From a virus, in the IMG/VR virus record IMGVR_UViG_3300005086_000180, positions 1 through 20,465 of that record: 20,465 nucleotides of DNA; one strand, 5' to 3'. A program made the translations under genes and the position numbers. The notes under the pieces were generated by a model. The model worked only from the letters and a program-made list of their open reading frames with translations, was not told the DNA's origin and did not search any database. Positions 11,613 to 20,465 of this stretch are shown piece by piece. Numbering within the stretch: the stretch's first letter is position 1; each line of letters starts with the position of its first letter.

Positions 11613-12431
11613 TTATCCGTCTGGGTTAGCTGTAAAGTGATTTTTCTTTTTAATCAGCTTATTGTTTTTATGCTGCATGTTATTTGTATTATTTTTTATA
11701 CGTATTAGTCTGTAAAATTGGTATTCGTATTCTAAGCCAGTGCCAAAATTATTTATGCTATTGGTTAATGAGTTTTTGTCTAAATAATAGCCTTTTGGTA
11801 CTCGTGGTTCTTGCAGCCACTTCTTACGATGCACAATGCTTTGTGTGACTGGTGGCTTTTTAAGGTTAGTGCTTGCCCACCAGCGTTTTTTAAATATCTG
11901 TGGTTGCGTGAAGAAAGCATTAACATTCTTTTTTACCATGTAGTTAGCTACTCTTTCGGCATCTTCGGGTTCGCCTGCGTATGGCCGTGGCTTAACAAAT
12001 CCATGTGTCCAGAGCTCTTTTATTAGCTGCCAGTCTAGCTTTGCCCCTTCAATTTTTATCATCGCATGATGATGCATCCTGTGTATCTTTGGGGTGCACT
12101 CTGTAACAAAAATGTACTTTACTACTGCATTTATTGATTTGCAGTGACGGATAAGGCGCTGTCTAAAGTTGCCTAGTAAGCGCTTAGCCTCTTTGGGGCT
12201 TGGTTCATGGCTGTATGACAGGGTAAAGAACCAGTCCCCAATGTTAAAGTTTTCTAATATTAGCAGCCTTAGTGAATCTACTGCATTTTTATTATTAATT
12301 TCTTCTTGTGACCTTGTAGTGGTTTCTGTCTTAGGGGCACGCTGCCTGTTCTTTACCGGAAGCCTTCTTGATTTTGTTACTTCGATGATATCTTTATTTT
12401 TTATTATTACTTCTTTATTCTTATATGACAT
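11613..12431 (-). CDS. rep: HUH-type replication initiator (rolling-circle Rep-like)
   Basis: This 272-aa protein shows the three HUH Rep motifs in order: FFTLSYS (residues 68-74, motif 1), the metal-binding histidines in HRMHHHAMIKI (H120-H121-H122), and the catalytic tyrosine with lysines in VANYMVKK (Y164). This arrangement is that of rolling-circle Rep endonucleases of the ORF2/G2P-like group, which nick one strand at a hairpin origin. The C-terminal 100 residues are basic. A minus-strand promoter TTTACA-17-TTATAA sits about 35 bases upstream of the start; the ribosome site is weak (GGTG). The 217-base gap upstream holds hairpins and a possible antisense RNA, fitting control of a replication gene. 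Confidence 0.8.
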   Translation of the reverse strand: MSYKNKEVIIKNKDIIEVTKSRRLPVKNRQRAPKTETTTRSQEEINNKNAVDSLRLLILENFNIGDWFFTLSYSHEPSPKEAKRLLGNFRQRLIRHCKSINAVVKYIFVTECTPKIHRMHHHAMIKIEGAKLDWQLIKELWTHGFVKPRPYAGEPEDAERVANYMVKKNVNAFFTQPQIFKKRWWASTNLKKPPVTQSIVHRKKWLQEPRVPKGYYLDKNSLTNSINNFGTGLEYEYQFYRLIRIKNNTNNMQHKNNKLIKKKNHFTANPDG

Positions 12432-12466
12432 ATTGCACCATTTTAATTATTAGTATTTTTATTGGT

Positions 12467-12495: not shown

Positions 12496-12507
12496 GATAA
12501 TACCTTT

Positions 12508-12540
12508 ATCAAGTCATAAAAGGGGCGTTACCCCTTGATT
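12508..12540. repeat. Hairpin with competing pairings upstream of rep (origin candidate)
   Basis: AAGGGG (12520-12525) pairs with CCCCTT (12531-12536) around a 5-base loop CGTTA. An outer inverted repeat ATCAAG/CTTGAT shares the CTT, so the two pairings compete. HUH Reps nick at or near hairpins, and this is the most GC-rich hairpin close to rep, hence an origin candidate. A weak terminator reading is also possible. Confidence 0.4.
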
Positions 12541-12566: not shown

Positions 12567-12595
12567 TTGTTATTAAACTTCAAAAAGTTTATAAT
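12567..12595 (+). promoter_or_regulatory. Plus-strand promoter upstream of rep
   Basis: -35 TTGTTA at 12567-12572, a 17-base spacer, and a consensus -10 TATAAT at 12590-12595. It points away from rep and into a short hairpin-plus-terminator segment with no ORF. Confidence 0.6.
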
Positions 12596-12601
12596 GGAAT
12601 T

Positions 12602-12666
12602 GGTCATATTTAGGGATATGACTTCTTATATGACAGTGCCGCTGATTTTACTCAGCGGCCTTTTTT
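12602..12666 (+). ncRNA. Putative ~65-nt small RNA, possibly counter-transcribed to the rep leader
   Basis: A start about 7 bases after the TATAAT would give an RNA with a 7-bp hairpin (GTCATAT 12603-12609 with ATATGAC 12616-12622, loop 12610-12615). A second ATATGAC (12628-12634) could compete for the same arm. A strong terminator stem follows: 12638-12645 with 12652-12659, then C and six Ts. There is no ORF of note. It is antisense to any minus-strand transcript running from the early operon into rep, as ctRNAs of rolling-circle plasmids are. Promoter and terminator are seen; the function is inferred. Confidence 0.5.
12638..12666 (+). terminator. Rho-independent terminator (plus strand)
   Basis: An 8-bp perfect stem GCCGCTGA/TCAGCGGC with a 6-base loop, followed by CTTTTTT on the plus strand only. 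It overlaps the last codon of the 76-aa minus-strand gene, so it cannot serve that gene; it ends a plus-strand transcript. Confidence 0.82.
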
Positions 12667-12878
12667 ATTGCGTTAATGTCTGCGGTGTCGAGTATAATGC
12701 GTTGTACACCTGCCCCAACTCCTGTAAAGTCCTGATAAACGATAGTAAAATCATCTTCGGCGGTAATTACTGTAATGTAATATGTTCCTTTTTCAATGAC
12801 GGCTAAAATGTGTTTATCTTTTAGCAGCAGTCTTAATTCTTTATACTGCTTAGGAATATCTTTAACTGTATAGTCCAT
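12648..12878 (-). CDS. Early phage protein, 76 aa, unknown function
   Basis: The 76-aa product MDYTVKDIPKQYKELRLLLKD... has a helix, then a strand-rich middle (GTYYITVITAEDDFTIVYQD) and a C-terminal DINAIKKAAE helix. I recognise no family. It overlaps the start region of its upstream neighbour by 17 bases in the early operon. Its stop codon is inside the plus-strand terminator stem. Confidence 0.6.
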   Translation of the reverse strand: MDYTVKDIPKQYKELRLLLKDKHILAVIEKGTYYITVITAEDDFTIVYQDFTGVGAGVQRIILDTADINAIKKAAE

Positions 12879-14075: not shown

Positions 14076-14151
14076 ATATCAATTTTCTTGAATTTAATAT
14101 TATAATATATCAATATTCTTGTGATGTCAATAACTTGTATCACGTTTCTTG
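14076..14151. promoter_or_regulatory. Three repeated operator-like sites in the switch
   Basis: TCAATTTTCTTG (14079-14090), TCAATATTCTTG (14110-14121) and TCACGTTTCTTG (14140-14151) are spaced 31 and 30 bases. Each fits an imperfect palindrome ATCAA-N5-TTGAT. They surround both divergent promoters, so they are likely sites for the Cro-like and CI-like proteins. A degenerate fourth (TCAATAACTTG) lies at 14128-14138. Confidence 0.62.
14102..14130 (-). promoter_or_regulatory. Early lytic promoter (minus strand)
   Basis: Consensus -35 TTGACA at 14130-14125, a 17-base spacer, and -10 TATTAT at 14107-14102. The middle operator (14110-14121) lies inside the spacer, so binding there would block polymerase. 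Confidence 0.75.
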
Positions 14152-14835: not shown

Positions 14836-15753
14836 ATGAACAGAAGTACCAAGCAGTCGATGAATGCTTTTGATAATGGCAGTTTTCAAAAGTTTTGTAC
14901 ACGACAAAATATTGATAAGGCTGTACATACGTTAGAAGGTTTTTTGAAGGGGATTTCTATTGATGATGAAATTTCTGATTTAGAAGTAAGTGAACTTAAA
15001 AATTGGGTTGACCAATATTTCGATTATATGAAGGTTCCTCCTTTATGTGAACTGCTACCTATAGTAAAAGGAATTTGCGAATATAAGAAAATAAGTGATG
15101 ATGACAAGGAAGATCTTTTATGGGTATGTCAAAATCTTAAAGAAAGCAGTGACTTTTATAATGTTATTACATCAGACATGCAGGTACTTCATGGCATGTT
15201 GCATGGTATCCTGGCAGATGGGAGAATAACTAAATTAGAATTAGAAAATCTCCAACAATGGTTATATGCAAATGAGCATCTACAAGGTTCATATCCTTAT
15301 GATGAAATTTCCGCGCTTATTTTAGGTGTTTTAGAAGATAATGTAGTGTCGAAGGAAGAAGAAGATTTCCTGAAGGTATATTTTGGACAATTTGCAAACA
15401 TTGACTTAAAGATGTCAGAAGATGAAATAGCTAATATAAAATCAATTATGACAAAGCAGGGGATTTGTGCTGTCGATCCGGTGATTAATATACAAAATTC
15501 ATTATTTTCTTTTACAGGTAAATCAACTCATGGTACACGAAAAGATATTGCTAATGTAATTACAACCAATGGTGGCGATTTTAACGACAGGGTAATTGAA
15601 AAAACAAATTATCTTATCGTAGGTAATGATGGAAATCCATGTTGGGCTTTTGCCTGCTATGGTCGTAAGGTTGAAAAAGCAATTAAACTTCGCCAGGAAG
15701 GTAGCCATATATTAATAATAAATGAACTGGACTTCTGGGATGCTGTTTCTTAA
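14836..15753 (+). CDS. BRCT-domain protein, lysogenic cargo candidate
   Basis: The 305-aa product has a C-terminal BRCT domain (about residues 218-305). It shows SLFSFTGKST, then RKDIANVITTNGGDF, a TNYLIVG strand, KVEKAIKLRQEG and a final NELDFWDAV with the conserved tryptophan. The N-terminal 200 residues are acidic helices in apparent repeats (DDEISDLEVSELKNWV; DGRITKLELENLQQWL; DNVVSKEEEDFLKVYF), resembling TerB-like or EF-hand-like helical bundles. BRCT domains bind phosphopeptides or DNA ends. It lies between repressor and integrase on the lysogenic strand, where conversion or exclusion genes often sit. GGAGTGAT lies upstream of the ATG. The function is unknown. Confidence 0.72.
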   Translation: MNRSTKQSMNAFDNGSFQKFCTRQNIDKAVHTLEGFLKGISIDDEISDLEVSELKNWVDQYFDYMKVPPLCELLPIVKGICEYKKISDDDKEDLLWVCQNLKESSDFYNVITSDMQVLHGMLHGILADGRITKLELENLQQWLYANEHLQGSYPYDEISALILGVLEDNVVSKEEEDFLKVYFGQFANIDLKMSEDEIANIKSIMTKQGICAVDPVINIQNSLFSFTGKSTHGTRKDIANVITTNGGDFNDRVIEKTNYLIVGNDGNPCWAFACYGRKVEKAIKLRQEGSHILIINELDFWDAVS

Positions 15754-15763
15754 TTAAAATAAA

Positions 15764-15794
15764 AAAGCCCCGGTGCTGCTAACACCGAGGCTTT
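15764..15794 (-). terminator. Hairpin 1 after the BRCT gene, terminator with T-run on the minus strand
   Basis: AAAGCC-C-CGGTG (15764-15775) pairs with CACCG-A-GGCTTT (15783-15794), with one C-A mismatch and loop CTGCTAA. The run of As at its left gives a TTTTTT tail on the minus strand; the plus side has only TTT. It may work in both directions. Confidence 0.6.
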
Positions 15795-15795
15795 G

Positions 15796-15814
15796 CCGAT
15801 ACTGCTAATATCGG
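15796..15814. repeat. Hairpin 2, same loop sequence as hairpin 1
   Basis: CCGATA pairs with TATCGG around the identical 7-base loop CTGCTAA, 1 base after hairpin 1. A GCTTTA tail follows, similar to the tail of hairpin 1. Confidence 0.5.
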
Positions 15815-15820
15815 GCTTTA

Positions 15821-15860
15821 CTGATTGCTATAATCCTGAATAAATTATATCAGCAATCAG
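15821..15860. repeat. Hairpin 3, 9-bp stem before the integrase
   Basis: CTGATTGCT (15821-15829) pairs perfectly with AGCAATCAG (15852-15860). An inner ATAAT/ATTAT (15830-15834/15844-15848) extends the stem past a 3-base bulge. It ends 32 bases before the integrase start and could lie in the integrase mRNA leader. Confidence 0.5.
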
Positions 15861-17629: not shown

Positions 17630-18745
17630 TTTAGGGATAATATATAAATTTTTCACCTTCGCAGCAATTTCATTTTCATAATTTGGAATAGCGTGTCCAT
17701 ATAGTTCTAAGGTATGCGTTATTTTACTATGACCAAGCCGACGGCTTACTTATACGATTGGAATACCTGCAGCAAGTAATTCAGTAGCGTGAGTGTGACG
17801 CAAAACGTGGAAGTTGCGATAAGGAACATTAGCTAGTTTTAAAAGATATCGCCAAGCCCTAGTAAAATTATTTGGCTTAACAGGCGTATTATTACGGGTA
17901 GTAAGAACAAACTGCTCTTGCTTAATATCTAATGCCGGAGCAGATAGTTTTAAATGCTTTAGAACGGATATGACATCATCGGTTAATTTTATTTTTCGAA
18001 CGCCGGCTTTTGTTTTTGGCGTTTCTAGATAAGCACCAAGTTCAAGCGATTCTTGCAATGAATGTTTAATGAATATTTCATTAGCAGTAAAGTTGATATC
18101 ACACCAGCGTAAGCCGAGTGCTTCACCAATGCGGATGCCGGTGGTTGCTGTTAGCAAAATAGTTGGATAGTAGCGTTCTAACTTTTTGGTATGAAGACAA
18201 GTTGTTAAAATACGTTCAATTTCAGCAGGAGTAAATATCTCAATTTCCTTTTTCTCAAAGCGCGGTGGTGAGACCATCGTCATGATATTCTTTTTTATCA
18301 TGCCTAGATCATAAGCTTTGGTCATCATAGCTTTTAAAACCTTATGCACTTTGTTTATTGTGCAGGCAGATAACGTAGGAAGGTTTTTATACAGCTTTTG
18401 CACATGTACCGGCTGCAGGTCTTGCAATTTATACCCAGATATTTCTTGCAGATGTTTTAAAAGACTTAAATATCTTTCATAGGTGCGTTGCTTTAATGAA
18501 TCTTTTTTGTAGGTCATAAGCCATTCTAGTGACCATTCTCCAACGGTCACGCTTGACGGTTCGACAAACTCACCTTGATTTATTTCGGTAAGCTGTTCAT
18601 TTTTCCAGGCAATAGCCTCAGACATTGTCTTAAAGCGTTTGCCAACTCGTTTTCCTTCAGGAGTAACGATGCCAGCCCAATAGCGTTGGCGGATTTTGTC
18701 AAAATAAATAGACCCATTGCCATTGGCTTGTTTTTTCTTAGACAT
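17627..18745 (-). pseudogene. Second tyrosine integrase, broken by an in-frame stop
   Basis: The frame from ATG 18745 is homologous along its whole length to the integrase at 15893 (GNGSIYFDKIRQRYWAGIV; KKNIMTMVSPPRFEKKEIEIF; HVLRHTHATELL). It reaches TAA at 17750-17752 after PIV. The same frame then continues for 40 more codons to a normal stop at 17627, reading VSRRLGHSKITHT then ELYGH. The stop falls where the first integrase has Asp328, so the truncated 331-aa product lacks the LGHS histidine and the nucleophilic tyrosine. A single base change from a tyrosine codon would suffice. GAGAGGT lies before the ATG. The element it served is likely immobile. Confidence 0.85.
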
Positions 18746-18843: not shown

Positions 18844-19707
18844 TTGAATAATATAGATATATATAATTTAATATATAAGGATATTTTTGCTACAACAGCT
18901 AATAAAGCATGCTATGTATTTTTATGTGGTGGAGCAGCTAGTGATAATATAAGAGATATAATTAGAGCTTATTTAGAAAAAAAACAATTTCAAGTTCTTT
19001 ATCCAGAAGATTTATTTATAGAAATGTTAAATCGTAATAAAAAATCTGATTTATTAGAATATGAAACTTTATTAGCTGAAAATTCAGATGTTATATGTGT
19101 TATATGTGAAAGTATTGGTTCGGCAGTTGAATTAGGTGCATTTACACAAAATGATGATCTTAAACCGAAAATGGTTGTTGCTATTAATAAAAAATATGCC
19201 CGACAAAAAAGTTTTGTTATGATGGGGCCGGTACAACAGTTAAAAAATAAGAATAAAGATAATGTTGTTACTTTTAGGTCAAGTGATACTAATGAATTGG
19301 GAGAAAAATTGACGAAAAGGTTTAAATTTTTTCGACGAGAACGTAGTAATCAGAGTACAAAATTTGATCTTTTACGCACATATATTGGTTTTATCCCATT
19401 AGTGATATATTTTTATCAAATTATTGATAGAAAAGATTTATATCGCACTTTAAAAAATTATCTGAAATTAAAAAATGAATTACCGCTCAATTATAATGAA
19501 TTATTTAATGCTACTATAAAATATATTTTGAAAATGGGAACAGTTATAATGGAATTTAGTTTAGAGAAAAACGATGAAACATTTTTTTTGTCAGATAAGG
19601 GATATAAGGAAATATGTATGTCAATTAATTCTTCTTGGGCATTTGATCGTACTCGATTGCATGATAAAATAAGGTGTGCTATACTAAATAAACAATTAAA
19701 TAATTAA
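18844..19707 (+). CDS. Retron effector: nucleoside deoxyribosyltransferase-like protein
   Basis: The 287-aa product from TTG 18844 (AAAGGGTG upstream) closely follows the Ec86/St85-type effector layout. It has FLCGG (residues 26-30), YPEDLF (53-58), LLAENSDVICVICES (76-90), and GSAVELGAFTQNDDLKPKMV with probable catalytic Glu96. KSFVMMGPVQQL (122-133) follows. The C-terminal 130 residues are a helical, probably winged-helix DNA-binding region. GTG 18811 would extend it by 11 residues but has no clear ribosome site. In type II-A retrons this protein binds the RT-msDNA complex and is held inactive until phage triggers it; then it attacks nucleotide substrates. Its stop overlaps the a1 arm of the ncRNA. 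Confidence 0.85.
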   Translation: MNNIDIYNLIYKDIFATTANKACYVFLCGGAASDNIRDIIRAYLEKKQFQVLYPEDLFIEMLNRNKKSDLLEYETLLAENSDVICVICESIGSAVELGAFTQNDDLKPKMVVAINKKYARQKSFVMMGPVQQLKNKNKDNVVTFRSSDTNELGEKLTKRFKFFRRERSNQSTKFDLLRTYIGFIPLVIYFYQIIDRKDLYRTLKNYLKLKNELPLNYNELFNATIKYILKMGTVIMEFSLEKNDETFFLSDKGYKEICMSINSSWAFDRTRLHDKIRCAILNKQLNN

Positions 19708-19878
19708 CCACTCCTTTTAGTCTTGCATATTGTTATGACAATATGCTTTGGAAGATGTTTCGTCTTCTTAGGTTTTTATGCTTGATATTATTCCCTATTG
19801 CTTAGTCGCTAATGCCACATTCAAGTGGCATCATCAACTAATCAATAGCGAAATGTAATTTCGGTAAAAGGAGTGGTT
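19706..19878 (+). ncRNA. Retron msr-msd RNA
   Basis: a1 (19706-19719) and a2 (19865-19878) are a perfect 14-bp inverted pair. The base after a1 is G19720, in TTAG as in Ec86, and is the expected branching guanosine. The msr has stem 1 (19725-19732 with 19739-19746, loop 6) and stem 2 (19751-19757 with 19761-19767) with a GTTTCG loop, as Ec86 has. The msd is a long interrupted hairpin: 19795-19800/19843-19848, 19802-19806/19837-19841, and 19812-19818/19825-19831 with loop ATTCAA. A small stem CGAAAT/ATTTCG follows (19849-19863). Exact msDNA ends cannot be read from sequence. Confidence 0.88.
19865..19878 (+). promoter_or_regulatory. RT ribosome binding site buried in a2
   Basis: The only Shine-Dalgarno sequence for the RT, AAAGGAG (19867-19873), is inside a2 and pairs with CTCCTTT of a1. 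ATG is 12 bases further on. In the folded RNA the site would be hidden. Confidence 0.6.
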
Positions 19879-19885
19879 TTTCTTT

Positions 19886-20465
19886 ATGAAAGTTAATAAT
19901 TTATTAATAAAGTCGTTAAAATTACCTGAATTTAAAAATATAAAAGAATTATCTATTTTGATAGGTGTGAGTTCTAGGTTGTTGTATTGTCTATCGCAAA
20001 ATACAGAAAAATATTACACTCATAAAATTATTCCTAAAAAAAATGGTACGAATAGATGTTTATCAATGCCATCATATACATTAAAAATAGTACAACGGTG
20101 GATATTGAAAAGAATTATAGAGAAAATTATACCCTCAAAGAGTGCTATGGCATTTAGAGTAGGAAAGAATTTTGGATATAAGCAAAATGCAACTTTTCAT
20201 TCAGATACATTGTACATGTTGTCTATCGATTTAAAAGATTTTTTTGATAATATAAAAGCTATTAAAGTATACTATTTTTTTATTAGTATTGGATATTGTG
20301 AATTCGCAGCAATGATTTTAACAGATATATGTACATTGAATGATAAGTTACCACAAGGTGGTGTTTGTTCGCCAGCATTGTCAAATTTACTATCATTGTC
20401 TTTAGATAAACGTCTTATTGGTTTAAGTGAAAAGAGAGGGATAAGGTTTACACGCTATGCTGATG
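19886..20465 (+). CDS. Retron reverse transcriptase (partial, C-terminus beyond window)
   Basis: The frame from ATG 19886 runs 193 codons to the window edge with no stop. It shows the retron-specific NAxxH motif as NATFH (residues 101-105), RT motif A LSIDLKDFFDNI (Asp115), motif B LPQGGVCSPALSNL (155-168) and TRYAD (189-193) at the cut, the start of YADD. GFRVG/RVGKNFGYKQ type residues precede NAxxH as in Ec86. The thumb and VTG motif are outside the window. It should reverse transcribe the msd using G19720 as primer. It is 178 bases after the effector, in the same direction. Confidence 0.93.
   Translation, partial: MKVNNLLIKSLKLPEFKNIKELSILIGVSSRLLYCLSQNTEKYYTHKIIPKKNGTNRCLSMPSYTLKIVQRWILKRIIEKIIPSKSAMAFRVGKNFGYKQNATFHSDTLYMLSIDLKDFFDNIKAIKVYYFFISIGYCEFAAMILTDICTLNDKLPQGGVCSPALSNLLSLSLDKRLIGLSEKRGIRFTRYAD

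Follow-up and report, generated by a model that had tools for sequence, protein, structure and literature searches.

Control of copy number by antisense RNA has been worked out in plasmids. The ~83-nt RNAI of pSK41 is an antisense RNA whose complement lies in the rep leader, ~100 nt before the start region, and its binding was proposed to induce a stem-loop that sequesters the ribosome-binding site (RBS) (PMC5703833). RNAII of pMV158, which is 48 nt long and has a single terminator hairpin and a single-stranded 5′ part, blocks translation of a rolling-circle initiator (PMC4485353). The rep leader of pT181 follows a three-segment logic, in which a pre-emptor segment is displaced by the antisense RNA, RNAI (PMC5703833). 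pC194 and pUB110 combine a CTTGATA-type nick motif with antisense RNAs for which a block of Rep translation has been predicted (PMC5703833, PMC5031790). No description of an antisense RNA of such kind in phages with a PF23343-type Rep was found in the open-licence literature.

The window analysed here is the whole of a 20.5 kb IMG/VR virus record (IMGVR_UViG_3300005086_000180, 20,465 nt). Its genes, reading outward, encode capsid, portal, TerL, an HNH protein, ParB-like and ParA-like proteins, Rep, small early ORFs, Cro-like and CI-like repressors, and an integrase; names of structural genes were taken from a reading of the translations. Rep carries HUH (RxHHH) and YxxK motifs, the signature of a rolling-circle initiator. 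An earlier note on this DNA had placed an antisense RNA upstream of rep, in the manner of rolling-circle plasmids. An antisense RNA gene beside a rolling-circle rep is indeed what the comparison with relatives favours, but the plasmid setting had to be given up, as the int, repressor, TerL and capsid genes make the element a prophage. Feature coordinates are collected in the table.

Features of the rep region in the window, with the basis of each assignment
Feature	Position	Strand	Basis
rep, rolling-circle initiator	11613–12431	−	PF23343 REP_ORF2-G2P and PHROG 3584 match; HUH and YxxK motifs
rep translation start region (start codon 12429–12431), pairing target	12418–12441	−	exact repeat; pairing scans
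ACTTGATA, putative rolling-circle nick site	12507–12514	−	motif match to known double-strand origin nick motif
GC hairpin adjoining the nick-like site, part of putative double-strand origin	12520–12536	−	hairpin scan
Promoter of antisense RNA, TTGTTA (12567–12572)-17-TATAAT (12590–12595)	12567–12595	+	consensus scan; counterparts in Rep relatives
Candidate anti-RBS arm of rep leader, complementary to rep start region	12590–12611	−	duplex −11.9 kcal/mol, z −3.5; position picked afterwards
Predicted antisense RNA, ~65 nt, start ~7 nt past the −10 box	12602–12667	+	promoter/terminator spacing; fold z −4.9
5′ hairpin GTCATAT-TTAGGG-ATATGAC (arms 12603–12609 / 12616–12622)	12603–12622	+	folding
Seed TTCTTATATGACA, perfect 13-nt complement of rep mRNA from start-codon base 2	12623–12635	+	exact repeat
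Intrinsic terminator of antisense RNA, stem 12638–12659, T-run to 12666	12638–12666	+	terminator scan; counterparts in relatives
76-aa ORF, unknown function	12648–12878	−	last codons overlap the terminator of the antisense RNA

Other features of the record were noted in passing. A 305-aa protein encoded between the CI-like repressor and int (14836–15753, +) has a BRCT-like C-terminal region with a weak match to the C-terminal end of DNA ligase LigA. A second, int-like tyrosine recombinase (17750–18745, −) stops before the C-terminal tyrosine region and is probably a truncated copy. At the end of the record (18844–20465, +) lies a Type II-A retron, with an NDT_II-A effector (PADLOC, 3.5 × 10−78; NCBIfam St85 family effector); the reverse-transcriptase-like ORF next to it, on its downstream side, is cut by the record end.

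We consider it probable, from the sequence comparisons described below, that an antisense RNA of ~65 nt would limit translation of the rolling-circle Rep through an anti-RBS arm switch in the rep leader; since this RNA would be made in proportion to template number, its output would set the replication level. Two leader segments are distinguished: arm 1′, which lies opposite the antisense promoter (arm 1), and arm 2′, which lies opposite the antisense RNA. The design resembles that of pSK41 RNAI, from the RepA_N theta plasmids of staphylococci, in pairing an antisense RNA with the rep leader at a distance from the start, with proposed sequestration of the RBS. A leader segment able to sequester the rep RBS was found for the family, and in the window only in a shifted position. 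The initiator of pSK41 is, however, unrelated and its replication is of the theta type, whereas the Rep here is not a RepA_N initiator but a rolling-circle protein of prophages (PF23343 / PHROG 3584); furthermore, a putative origin separates the RNA from rep here, and the anti-RBS arm lies under the antisense promoter. As with RNAII of pMV158 (Rep_2 rolling-circle plasmids), translation of a rolling-circle initiator would be the target, but the complement of RNAII is complete and lies in the mRNA immediately before the RBS, whereas here the complement to the start is short and separate, and the RNA gene lies beyond the putative origin, ~170–240 nt from rep in the window. The three-segment leader logic with a pre-emptor segment is shared with pT181, whose RNAI, unlike the RNA proposed here, acts mainly by transcription termination and whose initiator is of the Rep_trans family. 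The combination of a CTTGATA-type nick motif and an antisense RNA recalls pC194 and pUB110, although their antisense RNAs are counter-transcribed in the rep start region itself and their initiators belong to the Rep_1 family. The complementarity of a leader segment under the antisense promoter to the rep RBS/start region is new here.

Within the window, a check of the sequence found the promoter, the 7-bp hairpin, the third repeat (ATATGAC, 12628–12634) and the terminator all where the earlier note had put them. Its remark that these 100 bases contain no gene was not borne out, as the terminator overlaps the last codons of the 76-aa minus-strand ORF. A 67-nt RNA was predicted to fold with −24.1 kcal/mol, compared with −10.7 ± 2.7 for shuffled sequences. 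Pairing of 12603–12609 with 12628–12634, which hides the seed, had a predicted probability of ~0.66, against ~0.33 for the adjacent hairpin, so that two competing hairpins of the RNA may expose or hide the 13 nt. Searches of Rfam with the window and 20 relatives returned no family at the gathering threshold, and weak hits below it. Taken alone, the local evidence for the unit is weak and the unit is not exceptional inside the window, because promoter-like sites in the region were not above chance (17 found, 21.1 ± 5.4 expected) and five other promoter and terminator pairs in the window scored at least 20.

Relatives of the locus were decisive. When viral and genome contigs were scanned with one protein at a time (Rep, ParA or integrase), no useful close relatives emerged, and the TerL relatives found had no Rep nearby. 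A first Rep alignment was dropped as a search query because it was too divergent. Distant Rep homologues were obtained from phage records and genome searches, giving 54 relatives with 24–48% identity; the closest (L142, 48%) comes from a genome, G259, whose class holds many further Rep relatives. From each, the 600 nt upstream of rep were taken (set 1) and the antisense strand was scored for a −10 box (with optional TGn) and −35 box lying 22–61 nt before an intrinsic terminator, with a threshold of at least 20; rule-based calls were used for the start codons and promoters of relatives. An antisense unit reached the threshold in 30 of the 54 loci, whereas the controls gave none of 270 shuffles, 1/54 for the sense strand and 1/242 for segments elsewhere in these loci. 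Among the loci with a unit are those of Latilactobacillus phages (L084, L085) and of genomes from several groups, and many of the counterpart promoters, which occupy the same place, read TGnTATAAT. A second set of 40 non-redundant IMG/VR loci, which was fetched later and contains relatives of set-1 loci, was scored in the same way, but over 400 nt and with the rep-start rule re-coded; here the unit was present in 16/40 loci, against 1/40 on the sense strand and 0/120 shuffles. The scan found no unit in ~45% of set-1 and ~60% of set-2 relatives, and the closest relative itself fell below threshold (17.8), with a poor promoter. In view of the unit rates in both sets relative to the controls, the predicted antisense RNA gene is a conserved part of the replication module, and counterparts beside related replication genes occur in many phages and prophages of Bacillota.

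Two complementarities accompany the unit, and both, like the conserved RNA gene, emerge from the computation itself. In set 1, arm 1′ was complementary to the rep start region, with a mean z of −2.42 at −24 to +12 and values near zero at most other positions; measured against dinucleotide shuffles, the signal persisted with a mean z of −2.28 (n = 48 loci). Pairing was stronger with the locus's own target than with those of other clades (−2.22 vs −0.26; permutation 0/5000, p < 0.0002) and was also found in the IMG/VR set (mean z −2.70; permutation 0/5000), these permutation values overstating independence, as the loci are related, an effect reduced by the cross-clade comparison and the removal of near-copies. 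The second complementarity links the RNA body to the part of the promoter that surrounds the −10 box (mean z 2.46 in set 1, ~zero further upstream), and was replicated in the IMG/VR set (mean z −2.54 in energy terms). One arm of this helix is not transcribed, so the RNA alone cannot form it; the rep leader mRNA or the displaced strand can. When leaders were folded with the RNA region blocked, pairing of arm 1′ with the start rose from 5.1 to 11.6 expected bp on average, while predicted accessibility of the start region fell only modestly, from 0.45 to 0.40 on average. Direct pairing of the RNA body with the rep start had a mean z of −1.33 in set 1 and was weak in the IMG/VR set (own −0.78 vs cross −0.15, p = 0.02); as a general mechanism it was demoted. 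The antisense RNA upstream of a rolling-circle rep that the earlier note had proposed is thus strengthened, the unit recurring at the same place and on the same strand in distant Rep relatives far above all controls and carrying sequence complementary to the rep start region.

These elements suggest an order of events. The early operon transcript would present, from 5′ to 3′, arm 2′ (a copy of the rep start), arm 1′ (the anti-RBS segment), the origin hairpin and nick site, and the rep start; arm 2′ would thus resemble the rep start, arm 1′ complement it, and the antisense RNA complement arm 2′. With little antisense RNA present, arm 1′ would be held by arm 2′ and rep translated. Abundant antisense RNA would occupy arm 2′ and free arm 1′ to close on the rep RBS and start codon. 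The unit shows two features of a replicon antisense RNA: its own promoter and terminator opposite the rep mRNA, and complementarity at a site of that mRNA able to affect expression. We infer that the RNA is transcribed, that the leader acts as a switch, in which direction rep is regulated, and that copy number is controlled; rep translation is the likely level of control.

In the window, arm 1′ in the frozen position showed no pairing with the rep start (z +1.4); the candidate arm listed in the table lies slightly downstream and overlaps the first ~10 nt of the antisense RNA. Because this position was chosen afterwards and because of the overlap, the switch may not work as drawn in the window. 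The earlier note had missed a 13-nt sequence of the RNA, the seed, that is exactly repeated at the rep start (12418–12430). A complement of 13 nt between the window RNA and the rep start was reached in none of 2000 dinucleotide shuffles, and the predicted duplex has −16.4 kcal/mol. Co-folding of the antisense RNA with the rep start gave −39.5 kcal/mol, against −24.1 and −1.2 apart, leaving the 5′ hairpin and terminator unbroken and the stretch between them exposed and paired to the rep start. The seed could thus also bind the rep start directly, and, given the frozen arm without pairing and the shifted, overlapping arm found post hoc, the window may depend more on this pairing than on the arm switch.

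Between the RNA and rep lies a putative origin. Double-strand origins of the Rep_1 type are described as nicked at a CTTGATA motif (PMC10378824, PMC5031790). This motif, as in double-strand origins of the pC194/phiX174 type, is present in the window, where nicking by Rep is putative. In most loci the stretch separating the RNA from rep contains ACTTGATA or a near match, often with a GC hairpin before it and TATTA after it; a CT(T/A)GATA-type motif was found there in 36 of 48 loci, and a hairpin of at least 5 bp immediately 5′ of it in 18/48. TATGAC repeats were considered as Rep-binding iterons and set aside, as relatives lack them around the nick site. In five loci (L176, L177, L183, L187 and L188), a long inverted repeat, AACTATA...TATAGTT, lies ~20–110 nt upstream of rep, between the rep RBS and the origin, and is possibly a Rep-binding site or a leader hairpin. 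A sense-strand promoter was not enriched in relatives, either between the RNA and rep or upstream, and an independent proximal rep promoter was not adopted. As there is no such enrichment and the stretch from the promoter at 14130 to rep yielded no minus-strand terminator, the operon transcript probably crosses the antisense RNA gene.

A transcript of this kind could also be controlled by classical attenuation of the pT181/pIP501 type, the antisense RNA causing the rep leader to fold a terminator before rep. A short T-run does follow the sense-strand origin hairpin in the window (CCCCTTTTATG) and in L154, L187, L189 and L192. It is missing, however, in L176, L177, L183 and L146, so that no conserved sense-strand intrinsic terminator of the pT181 type was found between the antisense target and rep; the hairpin is accounted for by the origin, and pairing peaks at the RBS. 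We therefore regard attenuation as unlikely.

On what is presumed to be the leading strand, the unit sits immediately 5′ to the nick-like site, a position that a single-strand origin would also take. RNA polymerase would then make a primer RNA on the displaced leading strand from a promoter formed by the folded arms, and regulation of rep would be absent or secondary. An RNA serving as primer would have this polarity, and arms 1 and 2 form their hairpin more readily on the strand presumed to be leading. Yet the strong terminator is conserved, and a single-strand origin does not predict the complementarity to the rep start region seen in two sets. The window unit lacks the CS-6 motif (TAGCGW), on which ground ssoA was rejected, and the motif is not enriched (0/48 and 1/48), although other types of single-strand origin lack CS-6. 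A single-strand origin in place of rep control is thus very unlikely. Least probable of all is that the repeats are operators of a repressor or of Rep at the antisense promoter and rep start, with no RNA pairing: TATGAC-like copies do lie near the nick-like site in the window as well (12482, 12513), but similarity between the RNA body and arm 1 is enriched in the complementary orientation only, not the direct one, the sequences differ between clades while complementarity persists, and, of the two strands, the rep-sense one, on which G-U pairs contribute, gives the more stable form of both helices (p = 2 × 10−4, and 2 × 10−6 for RNA body:arm 1), which argues for RNA or leading-strand pairing over protein operators.

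Elsewhere in the window, a unit of the same anatomy lies antisense to and just upstream of int (15764–15849, −). It has a TGATATAAT promoter, an inverted repeat (CTGATTGCT/AGCAATCAG) across the −10 box, two hairpins and a terminator, and is the top-scoring unit of the window (25.45). Its arm is predicted to be able to pair with the int RBS (−12.2 kcal/mol, z −1.6). This hints at reuse of the design for other early genes.

Returning to the anti-RBS arm switch at rep, a broader reading is put forward tentatively. The loci might represent a widespread, undescribed class of RNA switch in Bacillota phages, in which the antisense promoter, read on its other strand, codes for the anti-RBS arm of the controlled gene, so that a single piece of DNA would act at once as promoter, as decoy partner and as blocker of ribosomes; other early genes may share the design. 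The pairing predictions are specific to each locus. If the proposed control of rep is true, a common group of temperate phages with a rolling-circle Rep would restrain its replication by a compact, origin-adjacent RNA switch. This would bear on how such prophages avoid over-replication after induction, and on whether they exclude each other as plasmids do.
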